From: Halovivax gelatinilyticus
GTDB lineage: Archaea; Halobacteriota; Halobacteria; Halobacteriales; Natrialbaceae
Length of the DNA stretch: 64,000 bases
Assembly (NCBI RefSeq): GCF_024300625.1
Contig: NZ_CP101322.1
Span: 1,873,992-1,937,991, forward strand
Direction of reading: 5' to 3'
Part shown: piece by piece, positions 9,545-51,395 of the stretch
Layout: the number at the start of each line of letters is the position of its first letter
Position numbering within the stretch: position 1 is the first letter of the stretch
Made by a program: the position numbers and the translations under genes
Notes under the pieces: generated by a model
Told to the model about the DNA's origin: nothing
Seen by the model: only the letters and a program-made list of their open reading frames with translations
Database searches by the model: none

Positions 9545-9612
9545 TCACTCGTCGGCGAACGTGCGAGTGACGTCGCCCAGGTCGAACAATCGCAGATCGT
9601 CGCGCGCTGATA
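9545..9612 (-). pseudogene. C-terminal tail of a deleted archaeal ATPase (DUF234-type)
   Basis: The minus strand reads ARDDLRLFDLGDVTRTFADE then stop. The intact ATPase at 49875-51299 ends with the same pattern (KDDRLRLFSLDDVVSSLN). Only about 20 codons remain, and directly upstream lies the 15-bp palindrome array. The gene body seems to have been removed by an internal deletion joining its promoter array to its last codons. Confidence 0.6.
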
Positions 9613-9621
9613 CTGCGTCCC

Positions 9622-9680
9622 GAATAGCCTATTCTGAAGTAGCCTATTTTGAGATAGGCTATTCAAAAAATAGGGTATGT
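9622..9680 (-). repeat. 15-bp tandem palindrome array, locus C
   Basis: Three palindromes centred at 9628, 9643 and 9658, exactly 15 bases apart: GAATAG-C-CTATTC, AAGTAG-C-CTATTT and AGATAG-G-CTATTC. A fourth, degraded unit lies at 9668-9680. The spacing equals that of the arrays at 42635-42679 and 51336-51395, but the sequence differs. Confidence 0.75.
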
Positions 9681-13857: not shown

Positions 13858-16800
13858 TTACAGCGGTGGGACGATCGCGTTGGTCTGATCGTCGTTGCCT
13901 TCGTCACCAGCGTCGCCTTCACCGGCCTGGTCCTCTGGCTCTTCCTCGTTACCTTCACCTTCCTCGCCAGCGTCGCCTTCACCGTCTTCTGGGGATTCCT
14001 CGTCACCTTCACCGTCTTCTGGGGATTCCTCGTCGCCTTCACCGTCTTCCGGTGCTTCCTCGTCGCCTTCACCGTCTTCCGGTGCTTCCTCGTCGCCTTC
14101 ACCGTCTTCTGGGGCTTCCTCGTCGCCTTCACCGTCTTCTGGGGCTTCCTCGTCGCCTTCACCGTCTTCCGGTGCTTCCTCGTCACCTTCACCGTCTTCC
14201 GGTGCTTCCTCGTCGCCGTTTTCATCTTCGTCGGCGGCCTGCCCGGCGATGGCAGCGGCTCCGCCGTCACCGACCGTCAACGTCGTCGTGACGGAGAGGT
14301 CACCGTCTTCGAATTTCAGGTCAGTCGTTCCGTCGGGGCACGGATTCGCCGGCGTGCGTTCGTCACCGACGAAGGTGCCAACACCAGCCACGACGGTTCC
14401 CGAAGTCGTTCCAGGTTGCTGGAAGATCTGATCGTCGCCGCCGCCGGTCTTGTGAACGATCGCGGTCGGTGCGTCCCCGTCGATTTCGAATTCGACGATT
14501 CTCGGATCGTTCGGATCGTCGACGAACGTGATGGAGACGGTCGCATCGGCGCCATCCGGGTAACAGAACGCGATGAAGCTGATCGCGAACTGTCCCGGTA
14601 TTGGCGGAATGTCCACGACGACCAGTAGCTGCGTGTGGACTTCCTCACCGTCGATCTGGATGCCGACGGTGTAATCGCCGGGCTCGTCGGTTCCTTCCCA
14701 GGTGAGCGTCACGTCACCGGTTTCACCCGGCCCGAGCGTGATTTGCTGGGTGTCGACGACCTGTCCGTCGATGGTCAGCGAGACGTTCGCGGTCCCTTCG
14801 GCGGTCCCGGTGTTCTCAACGGTGACGACCGCCGTGAACTCGTCAGTGGCGTTGATTTGAGTCGGCTTATCGATATCGACGAACTCGAACTCGGAGACGG
14901 GCTCGGGCTCTTCGACGACGGTGAGTTCCTGCGTGTGGACCTCTTCGCCGTCGATCAGGATGCCGACCTGGTAGGTACCTGGTTCGTCCGTCCCTGCCCA
15001 GGTGAGAGTAACCGTCCCCTCCTCACCCGCACCGAGCGTGATCGGCTGCGTATCGACGACCTGTCCGTTGATCGTCAGCGAGACATTTGCGGTACCCTCG
15101 GTGTCGCCGACGTTCTGGACGCTGACGTTTGCGGTGAACGTCTCGGTGGTGTTGATCTCGGTCGGTTTGTCGATATCGACGAACTCGAACTCGGTGACTG
15201 GTTCGGGTTCTTCGACGACGACGAGATCTTGCGTGTGGACTTCTTCACCGTCGATCAGTATCCCGACGGTGTAGGTTCCTGGTTCCTCGGTGCCTGCCCA
15301 GGTGAGGGTGACGGTGCCGGTTTCACCCGGACCGAGCGTGATCGGCTGGGTATCGACGACCTGTCCGTTGATCGTCAGCGAGACGTTCGCGGTGCCCTCG
15401 GTGTCGCCGACGTTCTGGACGCTGACGTTTGCGGTGAACGTCTCGGTGGTGTTGATCTCGGTCGGCTTATCGACCTCGACGAACTCGAACTCGGAGACGG
15501 GTTCGGGCTCTTCGACCACGACGAGATCTTGCGTGTGGACCTCTTCGCCGTCGATCAGGATGCCGACCTGGTAGGTACCTGGTTCGTCCGTTCCGGCCCA
15601 GGTGAGCGTCACGTCACCGGTTTCACCCGCTCCGAGCGTGATCTGTTGGGTATCGACAACCTCGCCGTTGATGGTCAGCGAGACGTTCGCGGTGCCCTCG
15701 GTGTCGCCGACGTTCTGGACGCTGACGGTGGCGTTGAACGTCTCGGTGGTGTTGATCTCGGTCGGCTTGTCGACGTCGACGAACTCGAACTCGGTAACGG
15801 GTTCGGGCTCTTCGACCACGACGAGATCTTGCGTGTGCACTTCTTGATCGCCGATCAGTATCCCGACGGTGTAGGTACCTGGTTCGTCCGTTCCGGCCCA
15901 GGTGAGGGTGACCGTACCGGTTTCACCCGGTCCGAGCGTAATCTCGGCCGAATCGACGGTTTCGCCGTTGATCTGTAGGCTGATCGTTTCGGTGCCTTCG
16001 GCGTCACCGACGTTTTCTATCGTAACCGTCGCTTCGAACGTCTCGGTGGTGTTGATCTCGGTCGGCTTGTCGACGTCGACGAAGCGGAAGTCCGAGACCT
16101 CGTCAGGATCGGGAACCGGCTCTAGCACATCGATCTTCTGCCAGTCGTAATCGTCGTCGCTGAGGACTTTGACGAGGTGTTTGCCGACGTCGTGTTCGTC
16201 GCTCTGCCACGTCAACTCGACTGTCGTACTCTCGCCGGGCTCGAGCGTGACGTCGGCGACGCGGTCGACTTCGATGCCGCCGATCTGGAGTCTGATATCC
16301 TGCGTGTCGGTTGCGTCACCGGTGTTGGTGATCTCGGCGGTGACGTAGAGCGTCTCCGTGGCGTTGATCGGATCGTTCTTCTCGACGATCTCAACGTCGA
16401 AGAACGCCTCGTCGACGGGCCGTTCGACGACCTCGATATCCTGTGAGACGGTGTCGTCGTCGCTGTGGGCGGTCACCGTGTGTCCGCCGATGTCGTCTTC
16501 GGTAGTCGCCCACGTCAGCACGACTTTCTCGCGCTCGCCGGGCCCGAGTTCGACACCGGTGGCCACGTCGACCTGTTCGCCGCCGATCTCGAGGCGGATG
16601 TCTTGCGTGTCGGCCTCGTCTCCCGTGTTGGTCACCAGCACCGTGGCTTTCAGCTCGTCACCCGCAGTCACCGGGTCGTTCTTGTGAACGAAGTCCACGT
16701 CGAAGAACGGACCCTCTTCGACGACGATTCGCTCTTTGACTTTTTCTTTGACTTTCTCGACCTCGACGACCTCTTTGACGTCTTCGTCGACTTCCTCCTC

Positions 16801-39760: not shown

Positions 39761-39787
39761 TACAACACATCGAAACGACCGCGCCGC

Positions 39788-39917
39788 CACCGCGACCGCC
39801 GCAACCGCTCCGCCACCGCGACCGCCGCAACCGCTCCGCCACCGCGACCGCCGCAACCGCTCCGCCACCGCGACCGCCGCAACCGCTCCGCCACCGCGAC
39901 CGCCGCAACCGCCCCGT
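39788..39917. repeat. 26-bp minisatellite, five copies
   Basis: Units start at 39788, 39814, 39840, 39866 and 39892; each begins CACCGCGACCGCCGCAACCG and four are identical, the fifth diverging in its last bases. The 26-base period is not a multiple of three, so the tract does not encode a repeated peptide. Confidence 0.92.
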
Positions 39918-40059
39918 TACCGCTGGCGTGCAACCGCTTGGATTGTGTTCCGTGCGAGCTGGTTCCGCATACTCGACGTGGAGTGCGATGGCACCGTTGT
40001 GGGTTACTCGGCTGCTGCCCGTTGCCGTACTCGCTCGCACGAACTACCGTTTCGCCGCC

Positions 40060-41231: not shown

Positions 41232-42591
41232 TCACAGAACGGATATGATATCGGGTAAACTAAAGAGCGTCACGTCGGTCCGGTCCTCGGCGGTACGCAC
41301 GAGATCGTCTCCAAACCCGGACCGGCTGAATATGACGTATAGGGGGTCCGAACCCGCTGGTTCTCCGCCCCACTGCACCTCGCTCGCCGTTCGTTCGAGA
41401 TCTGCGAGAACACCCTCGCTCACGGGCTGTGAGGTGAATTTACACTCGCCAGCGACGAGACCCTCCTTGCTCAATCCGAGTAGGTCCAACTCGTGCTGTT
41501 TGAACCACCACTGCCCAACGCCGTCGAACTGGTGATCCACGAGCGCTGGCAACGCCCGCTGGCACAGCCGTTCGAACAGTGGACCCACGTGATCTTCGAG
41601 CGCCGGCTCGACCGATTTTTCGAACGCGTTTTCGCCCTGGATGCGAAGCCGGTCCTGATTTCCGTACACGAACCGAAACCAGAACCGAAAGAGGGGTGCG
41701 GCGATTCGATACCGCCCGTGTTTCGACGCGGTCGGTGATTCCGTCACCGGAATGTGCCGTTCGACGAGACGGAGCCGACGGAGTTTCTGGAGGTACGCAC
41801 TCAGCGACTGCGATTCCACGCCGGCCATTCCGGCGATTTCGTTCGGCGTTCGACGACCGTGTGCGAGGGCGCGGAGCACGCTGAAGTAGGTGTTCGGTTG
41901 TCGAAGTTCAGTGCGAAGCAGGAACTCGGGTTCCGCGTACAGGAGGCCGCGCTCTGAGAGTATCGTTTCCCGGACGTTCGCCGCGAGCGATCGATTCGGA
42001 TCGATCGTCTGTAAGTAGTGGGGCGCTCCTCCGTAAATCGCCCACGCGGTGATCGCCGTCTCGGCATCGTACTCCGGAAAGAATTTGTGCGCATCACCGA
42101 CCGAAAGCGGCTGTAGATCGATCGTCGCCGTCCGCCGTCCGTACAACGGCGCACTTCCGGACAGAACCTTCTCTTCTATCACGCTAATCGATGATCCGAC
42201 GAGAACGAGTGTCATTTCGGTCGCTTTTAAGTGTAGGTCCCAGACGCGCTGCAATCGCGACGGAAGCGATGTGTCCTCTTCGATGAGAAACGGAAACTCG
42301 TCGATCACGACGATTGCGTCCGTCGCTCCGAGTGACTCGAGTAATACTTCCCAGTCGCGTCGAACGGTCCGAATCGACGGGAACTGTTCGGTTGCTGCAT
42401 CGACGAACTGCTCGAGTTGATTCTACCGCTTGATAGTACACGGCGTCGGACCGATCTGCGATAGATTGGCGAATCAATTCGCTCGTTCCCAACCGACGCC
42501 GCCCGTATAGAACGACAAATTCTGCCTGGTCGGATTCGAAGTACGACGTCAGTCGTTCGAGTTCCGACTACCGGTCGATGAATCGTTCCAT
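41232..42591 (-). pseudogene. Archaeal AAA+ ATPase with DUF234-type nuclease domain, inactivated
   Basis: Reading from the ATG at 42591: codon 8 is TAG (42568-42570) where relatives have a sense codon (MERFIDR*SELERL). The Walker A reads GRRRLGTS, so the essential lysine is threonine. After VYYQAVES the frame shifts and continues as NQLEQFVDAATEQF in another frame. The rest is sound: Walker B VVIDEFPFL, sensor VLVGSSISV, winged helix TPNEIAGMAGVESQSLSAYL and the nuclease-like ELDLLGL...VAGECKFTS. Three independent lesions show a real pseudogene. A shorter open frame from 42308 lacks the P-loop. A 15-bp array lies 44 bases upstream. Confidence 0.88.
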
Positions 42592-42634
42592 AGCATCCGT
42601 TCGCCGGGCGACACGATAGTACTACCGAAGAACA

Positions 42635-42679
42635 GAAATCACGATTTCGGAAATCGAGATTTCAGAAATTACGATTTCT
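42635..42679 (-). repeat. 15-bp tandem palindrome array, locus A
   Basis: Three adjacent 15-base units at 42635, 42650 and 42665: GAAATC-AC-GATTTC, GAAATC-GA-GATTTC and GAAATT-AC-GATTTC, each plus one base. Every unit is its own palindrome. A weak TATA-like AGTACTAT (42615-42622) lies between the array and the ATPase start, so the array occupies the upstream activator/operator position. Confidence 0.85.
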
Positions 42680-42762
42680 TTATTCACTCCATCGATCGCG
42701 TGACGTGGTATACCATCACCGAGTCGAACCCGACGATTCCGGCAATTGTACGGCGATACCGC

Positions 42763-42787
42763 GGGCCGGGCGCGATTGTGAACCACG
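42763..42787 (+). repeat. tRNA-Lys 3'-end-like fragment 1 (att-like)
   Basis: GGGCCGGGCGCGATTGTGAA and the following CCACG; the first 15 bases equal the tRNA-Lys 3' end (43245-43259). Identical to fragment 2. Confidence 0.65.
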
Positions 42788-42873
42788 TCGAGACGGTCCT
42801 GCTCGGGCTGCGACTCGTCTACTTCAAATCGCTGGTGTTCGCTTCGCTCCTCACGTCCGTTCGTCCCAGAAGC

Positions 42874-42898
42874 GGGCCGGGCGCGATTGTGAACCACG
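42874..42898 (+). repeat. tRNA-Lys 3'-end-like fragment 2 (att-like)
   Basis: A 25-base sequence identical to fragment 1 at 42763-42787, in the same orientation as the tRNA end. The sequence between the copies contains no gene. Confidence 0.65.
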
Positions 42899-43120
42899 CC
42901 CGAGAACCTGCGCTTTGCGCAGACCCTCGGTCTGCTTCAGATTCCTCCAGGGTCGGAATCTGAACACACGGTCGATCGCTTCCTCGCTCACGCTGTTCGC
43001 GAGACTGCGCTCTCCCTGCGTTCAAATCGTGCCTGCCGGTTCGCTACGCTCACCAGTTCGTTGTCTCCGAAAATCTGAGATTTTCGGGATGACGAAAGAG
43101 CTTGCTCTTTCGAACCACAC

Positions 43121-43143
43121 GGGCCGGGCGCGATTTGAACACG
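43121..43143 (+). repeat. tRNA-Lys 3'-end duplicate 3 (att-like)
   Basis: Twenty-three bases identical to the tRNA-Lys 3' part at 43245-43267 (GGGCCGGGCGCGATTTGAAC plus ACG). The segment after it ends in an inverted GTTCAAATC near 43188-43196, so it can also fold as a long imperfect hairpin. Confidence 0.75.
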
Positions 43144-49874: not shown

Positions 49875-51299
49875 TCAGTCGTGGGCCGATGACGACGGTG
49901 CGTTCAGCGATGAGACGACGTCGTCGAGGCTGAAGAGTCTGAGGCGGTCGTCTTTCTCGGCCGCCTCGACGACCGACTGGGTGAAGCCGTTTCGACTGAA
50001 CAGGGCGAACTCGTAGGTTGGCTCTCCGCCACCGCTCGGCGTCCAGTCGATCCGTCGTACCTCTTCTTTGAGACGGGCCAGGACGTCGTATCCAACGGGC
50101 TGGCTCGTATACTTCACTTCACCTGCGACGAGTGTGTCCCCGGTTGTGAGTCCGACCACGTCGATTTCGTGGTGTTTGTACCACCAGCGACCCGGTAGTG
50201 TCGCGAACGTCAGATCGCCGTACAGAGACGGGACGGCCTTTCGACACAGCGACTCGAAGACGGGACTAACGTAGTCGGCTAACTCGGGCTCGACGAGTTC
50301 TGCGTAGGCGTCCTCGCCATACAGTTCGAATCGGCCGTCCTGGCCGTAGACGAACCGGAACCAGAACGTAAAGAGTCGATCGCAAATCCGATACCGCCTG
50401 TTACGGCTCCGGACTGGATCGGCGGTCACCGGCGTTACCGGTTCGAGGAGCGCGAGATCCTCGAGCCGATCGAGGTAGTAGCTCGAACTGTTGGCATCGA
50501 TACCGACGGCGGTGGCGATCTCGTTTCGCGTTCGATTGCCGGCGGCGATCGCTTTCAAAATCGCGAAATATCGACTCACTTCGTCGAACTCCATCCGGAG
50601 GAGAAGCTCCGGTTCTTCGTGGAGACTCCCTCGCTGATCGAGGAGCGTCCGCGTGACGTTCTCGCCGACCGTCTCTGACTCGTCGATGGCCTGGAGATAG
50701 TGTGGGACGCCGCCGAATATGGCGTACGCAACGACCTGCGTCGTTGAATCGTAGCTGGGGACGAACCGGACGGCGTCCGCGAAGTCGAGCGGTTCGATCG
50801 GGAATTTTCCGCTCGGTTGCTGTGAAATTCGCCCGTACAGCGGTGCCGTCCCGTCGAGCGTCAGTTCGTACATCATGCCGATCGATGACCCGGAGAGGAC
50901 GAGTGTTGCAGCCGAGCCTTTAACGTCGTGGTCCCAGAGTCGCTGTATAATCGATGGAAGGCTCGAATCGGCGTCGGCGAGGTACGGAAATTCGTCGAGG
51001 ACGATGATCGCGTCCCGGTCGGTGAGGGACCGGAGTAGCGGTTCCCACGCGCGCTCGACGTGAGAGACCTCGGGGAACTGTCGAGCCGCTGTCTTGCGGA
51101 ATTCGGTGAGCTGGTCGGTCGCCGTCGTCTCGGTCGCCTGATAGTAGACGGCGTCCTCGCGGTTCCGTATGGATTCGGTGAGTAACCGCGTCTTCCCGAC
51201 CCGTCTTCGGCCCCACATAACGGCCAGCGTGGCCGAATCACTCCGATAGAGCGACCGAAGCTGGGCAAGATCGTCATCTCGATTGACGAATTCGCTCAT
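49875..51299 (-). CDS. Archaeal AAA+ ATPase with winged helix and DUF234-type PD-(D/E)XK domain
   Basis: A 474-residue intact member of the archaeal ATPase family (COG1672-type). Walker A GRRRVGKT is at residues 30-37, Walker B IIVLDEFPYL at 98-107, sensor VLSGSSIG at 134-141. A winged helix lies at about 245-290 (RTRNEIATAVGIDANSSSYY). The C-terminal DUF234 domain has the nuclease-like pattern Asp380...Glu394-x-Lys396 (EIDVVGL, VAGEVKYTSQP). Its biological role is not established. A TATA-like CCTATTTTAC about 27 bases before the ATG and three 15-bp palindromes just upstream suggest autoregulation by the winged helix, which is inference. Two decayed relatives lie in this window. Confidence 0.9.
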   Translation of the reverse strand: MSEFVNRDDDLAQLRSLYRSDSATLAVMWGRRRVGKTRLLTESIRNREDAVYYQATETTATDQLTEFRKTAARQFPEVSHVERAWEPLLRSLTDRDAIIVLDEFPYLADADSSLPSIIQRLWDHDVKGSAATLVLSGSSIGMMYELTLDGTAPLYGRISQQPSGKFPIEPLDFADAVRFVPSYDSTTQVVAYAIFGGVPHYLQAIDESETVGENVTRTLLDQRGSLHEEPELLLRMEFDEVSRYFAILKAIAAGNRTRNEIATAVGIDANSSSYYLDRLEDLALLEPVTPVTADPVRSRNRRYRICDRLFTFWFRFVYGQDGRFELYGEDAYAELVEPELADYVSPVFESLCRKAVPSLYGDLTFATLPGRWWYKHHEIDVVGLTTGDTLVAGEVKYTSQPVGYDVLARLKEEVRRIDWTPSGGGEPTYEFALFSRNGFTQSVVEAAEKDDRLRLFSLDDVVSSLNAPSSSAHD

Positions 51300-51335
51300 A
51301 TGCGTTATTCGAAGCCGTCAGTAAAATAGGTTCTC

Positions 51336-51395
51336 CTATTGTAGCTTGAACTATTGTAGTTTGAACTATTGTAGTTCGAACTTTGTTAGCTCGTC
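51336..51395 (-). repeat. 15-bp tandem palindrome array, locus B
   Basis: Units CTATTGTAGCTTGAA, CTATTGTAGTTTGAA and CTATTGTAGTTCGAA start at 51336, 51351 and 51366; a fourth, worn unit starts at 51381. Between successive units the sequence AACTA-TTG-TAGTT forms a dyad. The array abuts the TATA box of the intact ATPase gene. Confidence 0.88.

Follow-up and report, generated by a model that had tools for sequence, protein, structure and literature searches.

Few putative defence genes are commoner in archaea than ATPases of the PDC-S27 type, and we know of no account of their regulation. In the published description, PDC-S27 is a defence candidate that is enriched in archaea, consists of a single gene and still awaits validation; it combines an ATPase with a PD-(D/E)XK domain and was recognised through 'guilt by embedding' (PMC12988326). 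The ATPase considered here has in common with that candidate a profile match, the fusion of the ATPase to PD-(D/E)XK and an archaeal enrichment with bacterial members; neither a promoter array nor a match between array and protein is mentioned in the accessible part of that account. Its best structural matches are the archaeal ATPases 2QEN (P. abyssi PABY2304) and 2FNA (SSO1545), which are chains of 350-352 residues without the C-terminal DUF234 nuclease part, and we found no promoter array reported for them.

Our window is the whole stretch of DNA that was analysed, 64,000 nt of Halovivax gelatinilyticus NZ_CP101322.1 (positions 1,873,992-1,937,991, forward strand). It holds three loci of this ATPase family, one of them with an intact gene, which is arranged as follows:

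49875-51299, minus strand: ATPase gene, an open ORF of 474 aa with its ATG at 51299
Residues 1-203 of the product: AAA+/STAND-like ATPase_2 domain (Pfam, E 6e-23)
Residues 241-305: winged helix (AlphaFold model)
Residues 313-474: PD-(D/E)XK DUF234 domain (Pfam, E 1e-16)
51321-51335, minus strand: TATA-like element CCTATTTTA, in the 15-bp step that follows the array downstream, assigned by inspection
51336-51391, minus strand: operator-like array of three full and one partial 15-bp palindromic units (TRF: period 15, 3.7 copies)

On the forward strand the units start at 51336 (CTATTGTAGCTTGAA), 51351 (CTATTGTAGTTTGAA) and 51366 (CTATTGTAGTTCGAA), with the consensus CTATTGTAG[CT]T[TC]GAA. The coding strand reads GTTCGAACTACAATA GTTCAAACTACAATA GTTCAAGCTACAATA and then the TATA-like CCTATTTTAC, the unit being AACTACAATAGTTCA and its palindrome AACTA-CAA-TAGTT, and a homologous array is present at the same-genus ortholog (L013/L278). 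An earlier note, made from the letters of this DNA, had placed three tandem 15-bp palindromes at these positions, directly upstream of a TATA box and an intact ATPase gene with a winged helix and a PD-(D/E)XK-like domain. The palindromes are confirmed, with perfect period and independently by TRF; their placement is borne out by the sequence, the ORF and the Pfam domains, the winged helix by the model and the PD-(D/E)XK core by invariant residues.

In the AlphaFold model (mean pLDDT 91), the winged helix consists of helices at residues 241-252, 258-265 and 269-281 and a wing at 285-305. The putative nuclease core (E378, D380, E394, K396), the intact Walker A and B motifs and the GxP motif of the helical domain (G196, G197, P199) show no variation across 20 diverse relatives. 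The PADLOC profile PDC-S27 matches residues 1-365 (E 3.3e-44; a second model gives E 1.1e-24), and the listing of the family as this PADLOC candidate is the one basis for its candidate role in defence. A search of NCBIfam with the protein gave no match, and a search of solved structures by sequence gave spurious alpha-repeat matches only. In structural comparison, the ATPase part is closest to 2QEN (Z 22.3) and 2FNA (Z 20.9) over residues 1-316, followed by plant NLR resistosomes at Z ~16 (RPP1: Z 16.3, 284 aligned residues, rmsd 4.2) and ORC/Cdc6 at Z ~13. TPR, LRR and WD40 sensor repeats are absent from the C terminus, which is instead the DUF234/PD-(D/E)XK domain, and for this reason we file the protein as STAND-like rather than as a canonical STAND protein.

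Two more loci of the same layout had been proposed for the window. Their arrays are there, with the 15-bp period and with units of their own, but the ATPases are not intact, and the locus near 9.6 kb is weak:

41232-42591, minus strand: second ATPase, D type, decayed through a stop in codon 8, a frameshift close to codon 60 and replacement of the Walker-A Lys by Thr
42633-42690, minus strand: array of the decayed D-type copy, intact, with 15-bp period and unit GAAATCACGATTTC(C/A)
9557-9619, minus strand: C-terminal scrap of ~21 aa (RDDLRLFDLGDVTRTF) of a third ATPase, a weak match (E 0.02), the remainder being deleted
9623-9680, minus strand: array remaining from the third ATPase, B type, unit GAATAGCCTATTCTG

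Delimited slightly differently, the decayed gene covers 41238-42591 and the two arrays 42633-42678 and 9623-9668. An intact D-type relative has 78% identity to the decayed copy, and a fourth paralog, intact and located outside the window (C1:1159876-1161264), has its own distinct unit, AGTACGATACTCTGG. When 464 kb of the genome (the window and 20 samples of 20 kb) were scanned at periods of 11-19, three AT-rich palindromic arrays of period 15 were found, whereas all other periods together gave one. We rejected chance as an explanation, because the period-15 arrays are confined to the three ATPase loci of the window. The window also contains near-perfect tandem repeats unrelated to the ATPase arrays, at 13971-14217 (30 bp, 94% matches) and 39778-39923 (26 bp, 96%), about five tandem 300-bp units at 14630-16083, apparently inside a coding region, and three repeats of the motif CGGGCCGGGCGCGATT(GTGAACCAC/TGAACAC) at 42755-43140, downstream of the decayed ATPase locus. 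A degenerate half-site pattern, also tried on the window, was too loose for use.

How widespread is this arrangement? Among relatives from 100 genomes, a lag of 15 was best or joint-best upstream of the gene for 70 of the 75 near ones and 23 of the 32 far ones, and the same held for 14 of 107 control stretches located 245-400 bp upstream. For 142 relatives, a set freed of redundancy, we also scored arrays by the sum of periodic self-match and dyad symmetry, with thresholds of at least 19 and at least 22. At the lower threshold an array lies upstream of or over the start codon in 117 of 142 relatives, as against 33 of 447 control genes (~7%); at the higher one the counts are 73 of 142 and 7 of 447, the control genes being from the same contigs, and four of these seven are actually family promoters while three are GC-rich coding repeats. 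Sister ATPases of the DUF4143 type (AAA_14, PDC-S01) lack the 15-bp array in haloarchaea (0 of 9 genes, with scores of 13-17, equal to background). Looked for by self-match and by score, arrays accordingly stand upstream of most relatives, as the earlier note had expected, and they are not equally common at unrelated genes.

The arrays comprise 2-6 units and are present in haloarchaea of many genera, in most of which the array stops ~35 bp short of the start codon and overlaps the BRE/TATA region. It lies over the start region instead, with a median of -29 to +1, in the F subfamily, in methanogens and in bacteria. Relatives from the methanogen phylum carry it on the start codon (TACTCTAAAGTATGATACTCTAAAGTATG, L225/L227/L228; also L220, L246 and L248), and the M. 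jannaschii relative has the same array layout. Bacterial relatives were taken from plasmid and phage records, and their arrays are found in Rhodothermus marinus (ATACTCCAGAGTATAATACTCTCGAGTATAATC), Mesorhizobium, Rhizobium and Firmicutes-like contigs (AAATCACGATTTAGTAAATCACGATTAG); in Bacteroides-type relatives the repeat is 16 bp long, not 15 bp. On the Rhodothermus marinus plasmid pRMAR01 (L303:1-2916), the ATPase follows csm5, a gene of a type III-A CRISPR system, with no other annotated gene in between.

The array and its gene appear to travel without company. Among the neighbours of the 142 loci there is no conserved gene, the most frequent family being a TnpB-like transposon protein at 13 loci, and there is no linked antitoxin or repressor gene, which led us to reject a toxin-antitoxin module. 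Two congeners (G002, G003) lack the ATPase and have the aldo/keto reductase and VOC genes ~90-96 bp apart; the nearest ortholog (G001, 75% identity) occupies this site, and the homology that it shares with the window stops at the array edge. Gene and array are gained and lost together as a single-gene module with no visible transposon ends: at the one boundary that was mapped, by means of the empty sites in the two congeners, there are neither terminal repeats nor a target duplication. A mobile element was rejected on these grounds, and the suggestion of a selfish unit finds no support despite the presence and absence of the single gene.

A scan of the 100 genomes for the D-type array returned 20 places, 14 of them at D-type ATPases or pieces of such genes and two of the other six beside small ATPase remnants, with ~0 for a reversed control pattern. 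We therefore read the arrays as family-only addresses, a specificity that is judged by the D-type scan only, the C-type pattern having also caught a PadR-like operator family; a few arrays do occur away from ATPases. Orphan arrays of D or C type with no detectable ATPase were seen in L250, L251, L254, L257 and L259, small ATPase remnants lie beside the array in L255 and L258, and a clean C-type array with no ATPase or remnant nearby is located ~130 bp upstream of the biotin synthase gene bioB (L256:4046-4090). In haloarchaea, a PadR-like wHTH gene (MSTDVG..., L260:3985-4512; L261, L262, L263, L265) has the 15-bp palindromic array GAGTAAATTACTCTG just upstream. Its half-site frame is as in the ATPase arrays, and the geometry of 15 bp alone can therefore not identify the reader, because it is found at this unrelated gene as well.

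The unit sequence itself varies with the protein. Unit types A-F sort into clades of the ATPase tree, and when the arrays are folded on their two symmetry axes all types fit a single half-site frame of 7 bp, N-R-A-N-W-W-N, in which the base at position four is largely specific to the subfamily (C, A, G or T). Residues 268-271 of the recognition helix and the half-sites pair up as xYNQ with AAGTAT, DGKQ with AAATAG, ES(G/A/Q/S)S with GATTTC, (D/E)SN(A/S) with GATTA, SGP with GATAAT, ANS with AACTAC and ESTN with RACTAT. The unit goes broadly with the recognition helix of the winged helix, and its pairing with its ATPase at the level of subfamilies is well supported. Up to five unit types coexist in one genome, each at its own ATPase, and same-genome paralogs of one type are fewer than expected by shuffling (5 pairs versus 10.9, P 0.02), although single-copy inheritance of each subfamily could be an alternative cause.

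Matching of helix to unit is confounded by shared descent. Two proteins speak against descent as the whole explanation. Leaving the winged helix aside, L025 and its sister clade have 66-67% identity, yet L025 carries the helix changes S257K, E260R, T270R and N271D and has a unit, GAAATGAGTTTC, quite unlike that of the sister clade; L033, with 52-60% identity to every A-group member over the rest of the protein, has the unit AACTAC and 80% of the helix in common with L001/L014. When unit distance was correlated with residue changes and overall protein distance was partialled out, the winged helix was not singled out across all pairs, and for pairs at a distance of 0.3-0.5 the contact set was beaten by 300 of 3000 random sets. 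A specificity ranking gave a mild excess of winged-helix columns, with 274, 253, 246, 258, 280 and 242 in the top 12, which is at most suggestive, having been seen post hoc. Covariation of unit and winged helix, proposed earlier as a check, consequently holds as a grouping of subfamilies with the recognition helix, and we dropped the claim at the level of residues, where the winged helix does not stand out once overall protein distance is removed. The related proposal that each ATPase, or a partner, recognises its own array retains its subfamily-level match, and a partner has become the less likely reader because no neighbour gene is conserved.

How might the array act? Its position, period and symmetry are conserved, its subfamily-specific unit tracks the protein, and no partner gene is conserved. 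We consider it probable that the array serves the ATPase gene behind it as operator and that the ATPase binds it via the winged helix and so represses itself; both the ATPase as reader and repression as effect are what we infer. The ATPase itself would be the simplest reader, because the arrays follow the ATPase family and no partner gene is conserved, and it would bind its array through the winged-helix domain. Each 15-bp unit presents two facing 7-bp half-sites, and subunits would be paired along the array, as its symmetry suggests. Occupancy would exclude transcription factors or polymerase, because the array overlaps the BRE/TATA or start region, and the bound protein would block transcription and so keep the enzyme low and self-limited. 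More speculatively, nucleotide switching or oligomerisation upon activation might free the operator and raise both expression and nuclease activity; the match of the fold to 2QEN, 2FNA, NLR proteins and ORC/Cdc6 is the reason to think of a nucleotide switch that is able to leave the operator in this way. Counting against the ATPase as reader, the equivalent winged helix of NLR/Apaf-1-type STAND proteins is a nucleotide-switch domain and not a DNA reader. A wider picture, in which an NLR/STAND-like immune ATPase-nuclease uses its winged-helix switch also as an evolvable DNA reader of a private promoter address, so that archaea and bacteria would possess insulated single-gene self-regulating immune switches, is one that we entertain tentatively and would not bet on.

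Alternatively, the array may be bound by separate transcription factors, such as small wHTH/PadR-like proteins, that are encoded elsewhere in the genome and control the ATPases. The haloarchaeal PadR-like gene with its array of the same geometry provides a precedent, and arrays so placed are ordinary operator architecture. The unit, however, tracks the ATPase subfamily and not the genome (at most five types per genome), no regulator gene travels with the module, and one unlinked, co-inherited regulator would be needed for each subfamily in archaea and bacteria, all of which makes this explanation distinctly unlikely. It is also conceivable that the ATPase does read the array, but that the array is mainly a parking or assembly site on which the nuclease is inactive or poised until a trigger releases or assembles it. 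The nearest folds belong to switch ATPases that form oligomers (NLR resistosomes, Apaf-1/CED-4) or are assembled on DNA (ORC/Cdc6, MuB, TnsC), and 2-6 units per array would suit an ordered assembly; yet the arrays are consistently found at the core promoter or start codon, the 464 kb of sampled genome hold no further copies, and repression needs no extra assumptions. We regard a primary role of this kind as unlikely.

Array and ATPase might together be a mobile unit of the selfish kind, in which the array is the target or end for transposition or homing, as patchy presence, the two empty congener sites with flanks ~90-96 bp apart, the decayed copies and the array-only remnants could suggest. 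Such a unit is very improbable, given that the mapped boundary has no terminal repeats or target duplication, that homology to the same-genus ortholog stops at the array edge, which is the promoter, that the array is on one side only and that ATPase/DUF234 is not a transposase family. Shared ancestry or compositional noise without function, finally, would account for promoter sequence that close relatives have in common by descent, but not for a period and symmetry that are kept while the sequence is wholly replaced between subfamilies and domains of life, nor for arrays that are missing at the sister DUF4143 ATPases and rare at control genes; its probability is negligible, and for practical purposes it is refuted. 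An autorepressive operator read by the ATPase itself is the explanation that we favour.

Self-operators are an ordinary kind of regulation. What is new, as far as our searches go, is a putative 15-bp tandem operator, private and specific to the subfamily, that accompanies an immune-like ATPase-nuclease and is conserved from archaea to bacteria; in line with the earlier note, we found no described system in the open literature that pairs this ATPase family with such arrays. A private operator beside each gene would offer a direct experimental handle, comprising a putative DNA ligand, the residues likely to read it and natural swaps in L025 and L033, and the arrays are a simple genomic marker of live, decayed and deleted ATPase copies. 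If the winged helix reads the array, then a part of the NLR switch would be a DNA reader, linking DNA-binding ATPases of the ORC/Cdc6 type with immune STAND switches.

With the latter (NLR resistosomes, Apaf-1/CED-4, MalT) the window ATPase has in common the order of nucleotide-binding, helical and winged-helix domains, the Walker A and B motifs and GG(T/V)P; unlike them, it has no C-terminal sensor repeats, and its winged helix is proposed as a DNA reader. Orc1/Cdc6 likewise combines AAA+ with a winged helix, and these initiators bind repeated origin elements, whereas they have no nuclease and the putative target of the window ATPase is its own promoter, with units that diverge by subfamily. 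Mycobacterial IniR has an ATPase domain predicted to be SSO1545-like and acts in promoter control, but it does so with MalT-like and C-terminal DNA-binding domains as an activator of iniBAC, and it has no nuclease and no 15-bp array (PMC5760070). Autoregulated toxin-antitoxin and defence operons resemble the module in that a palindromic operator at their own promoter limits a potentially toxic enzyme; in contrast to such operons, the module contains no antitoxin or repressor gene, and one gene would be both the enzyme and its repressor.
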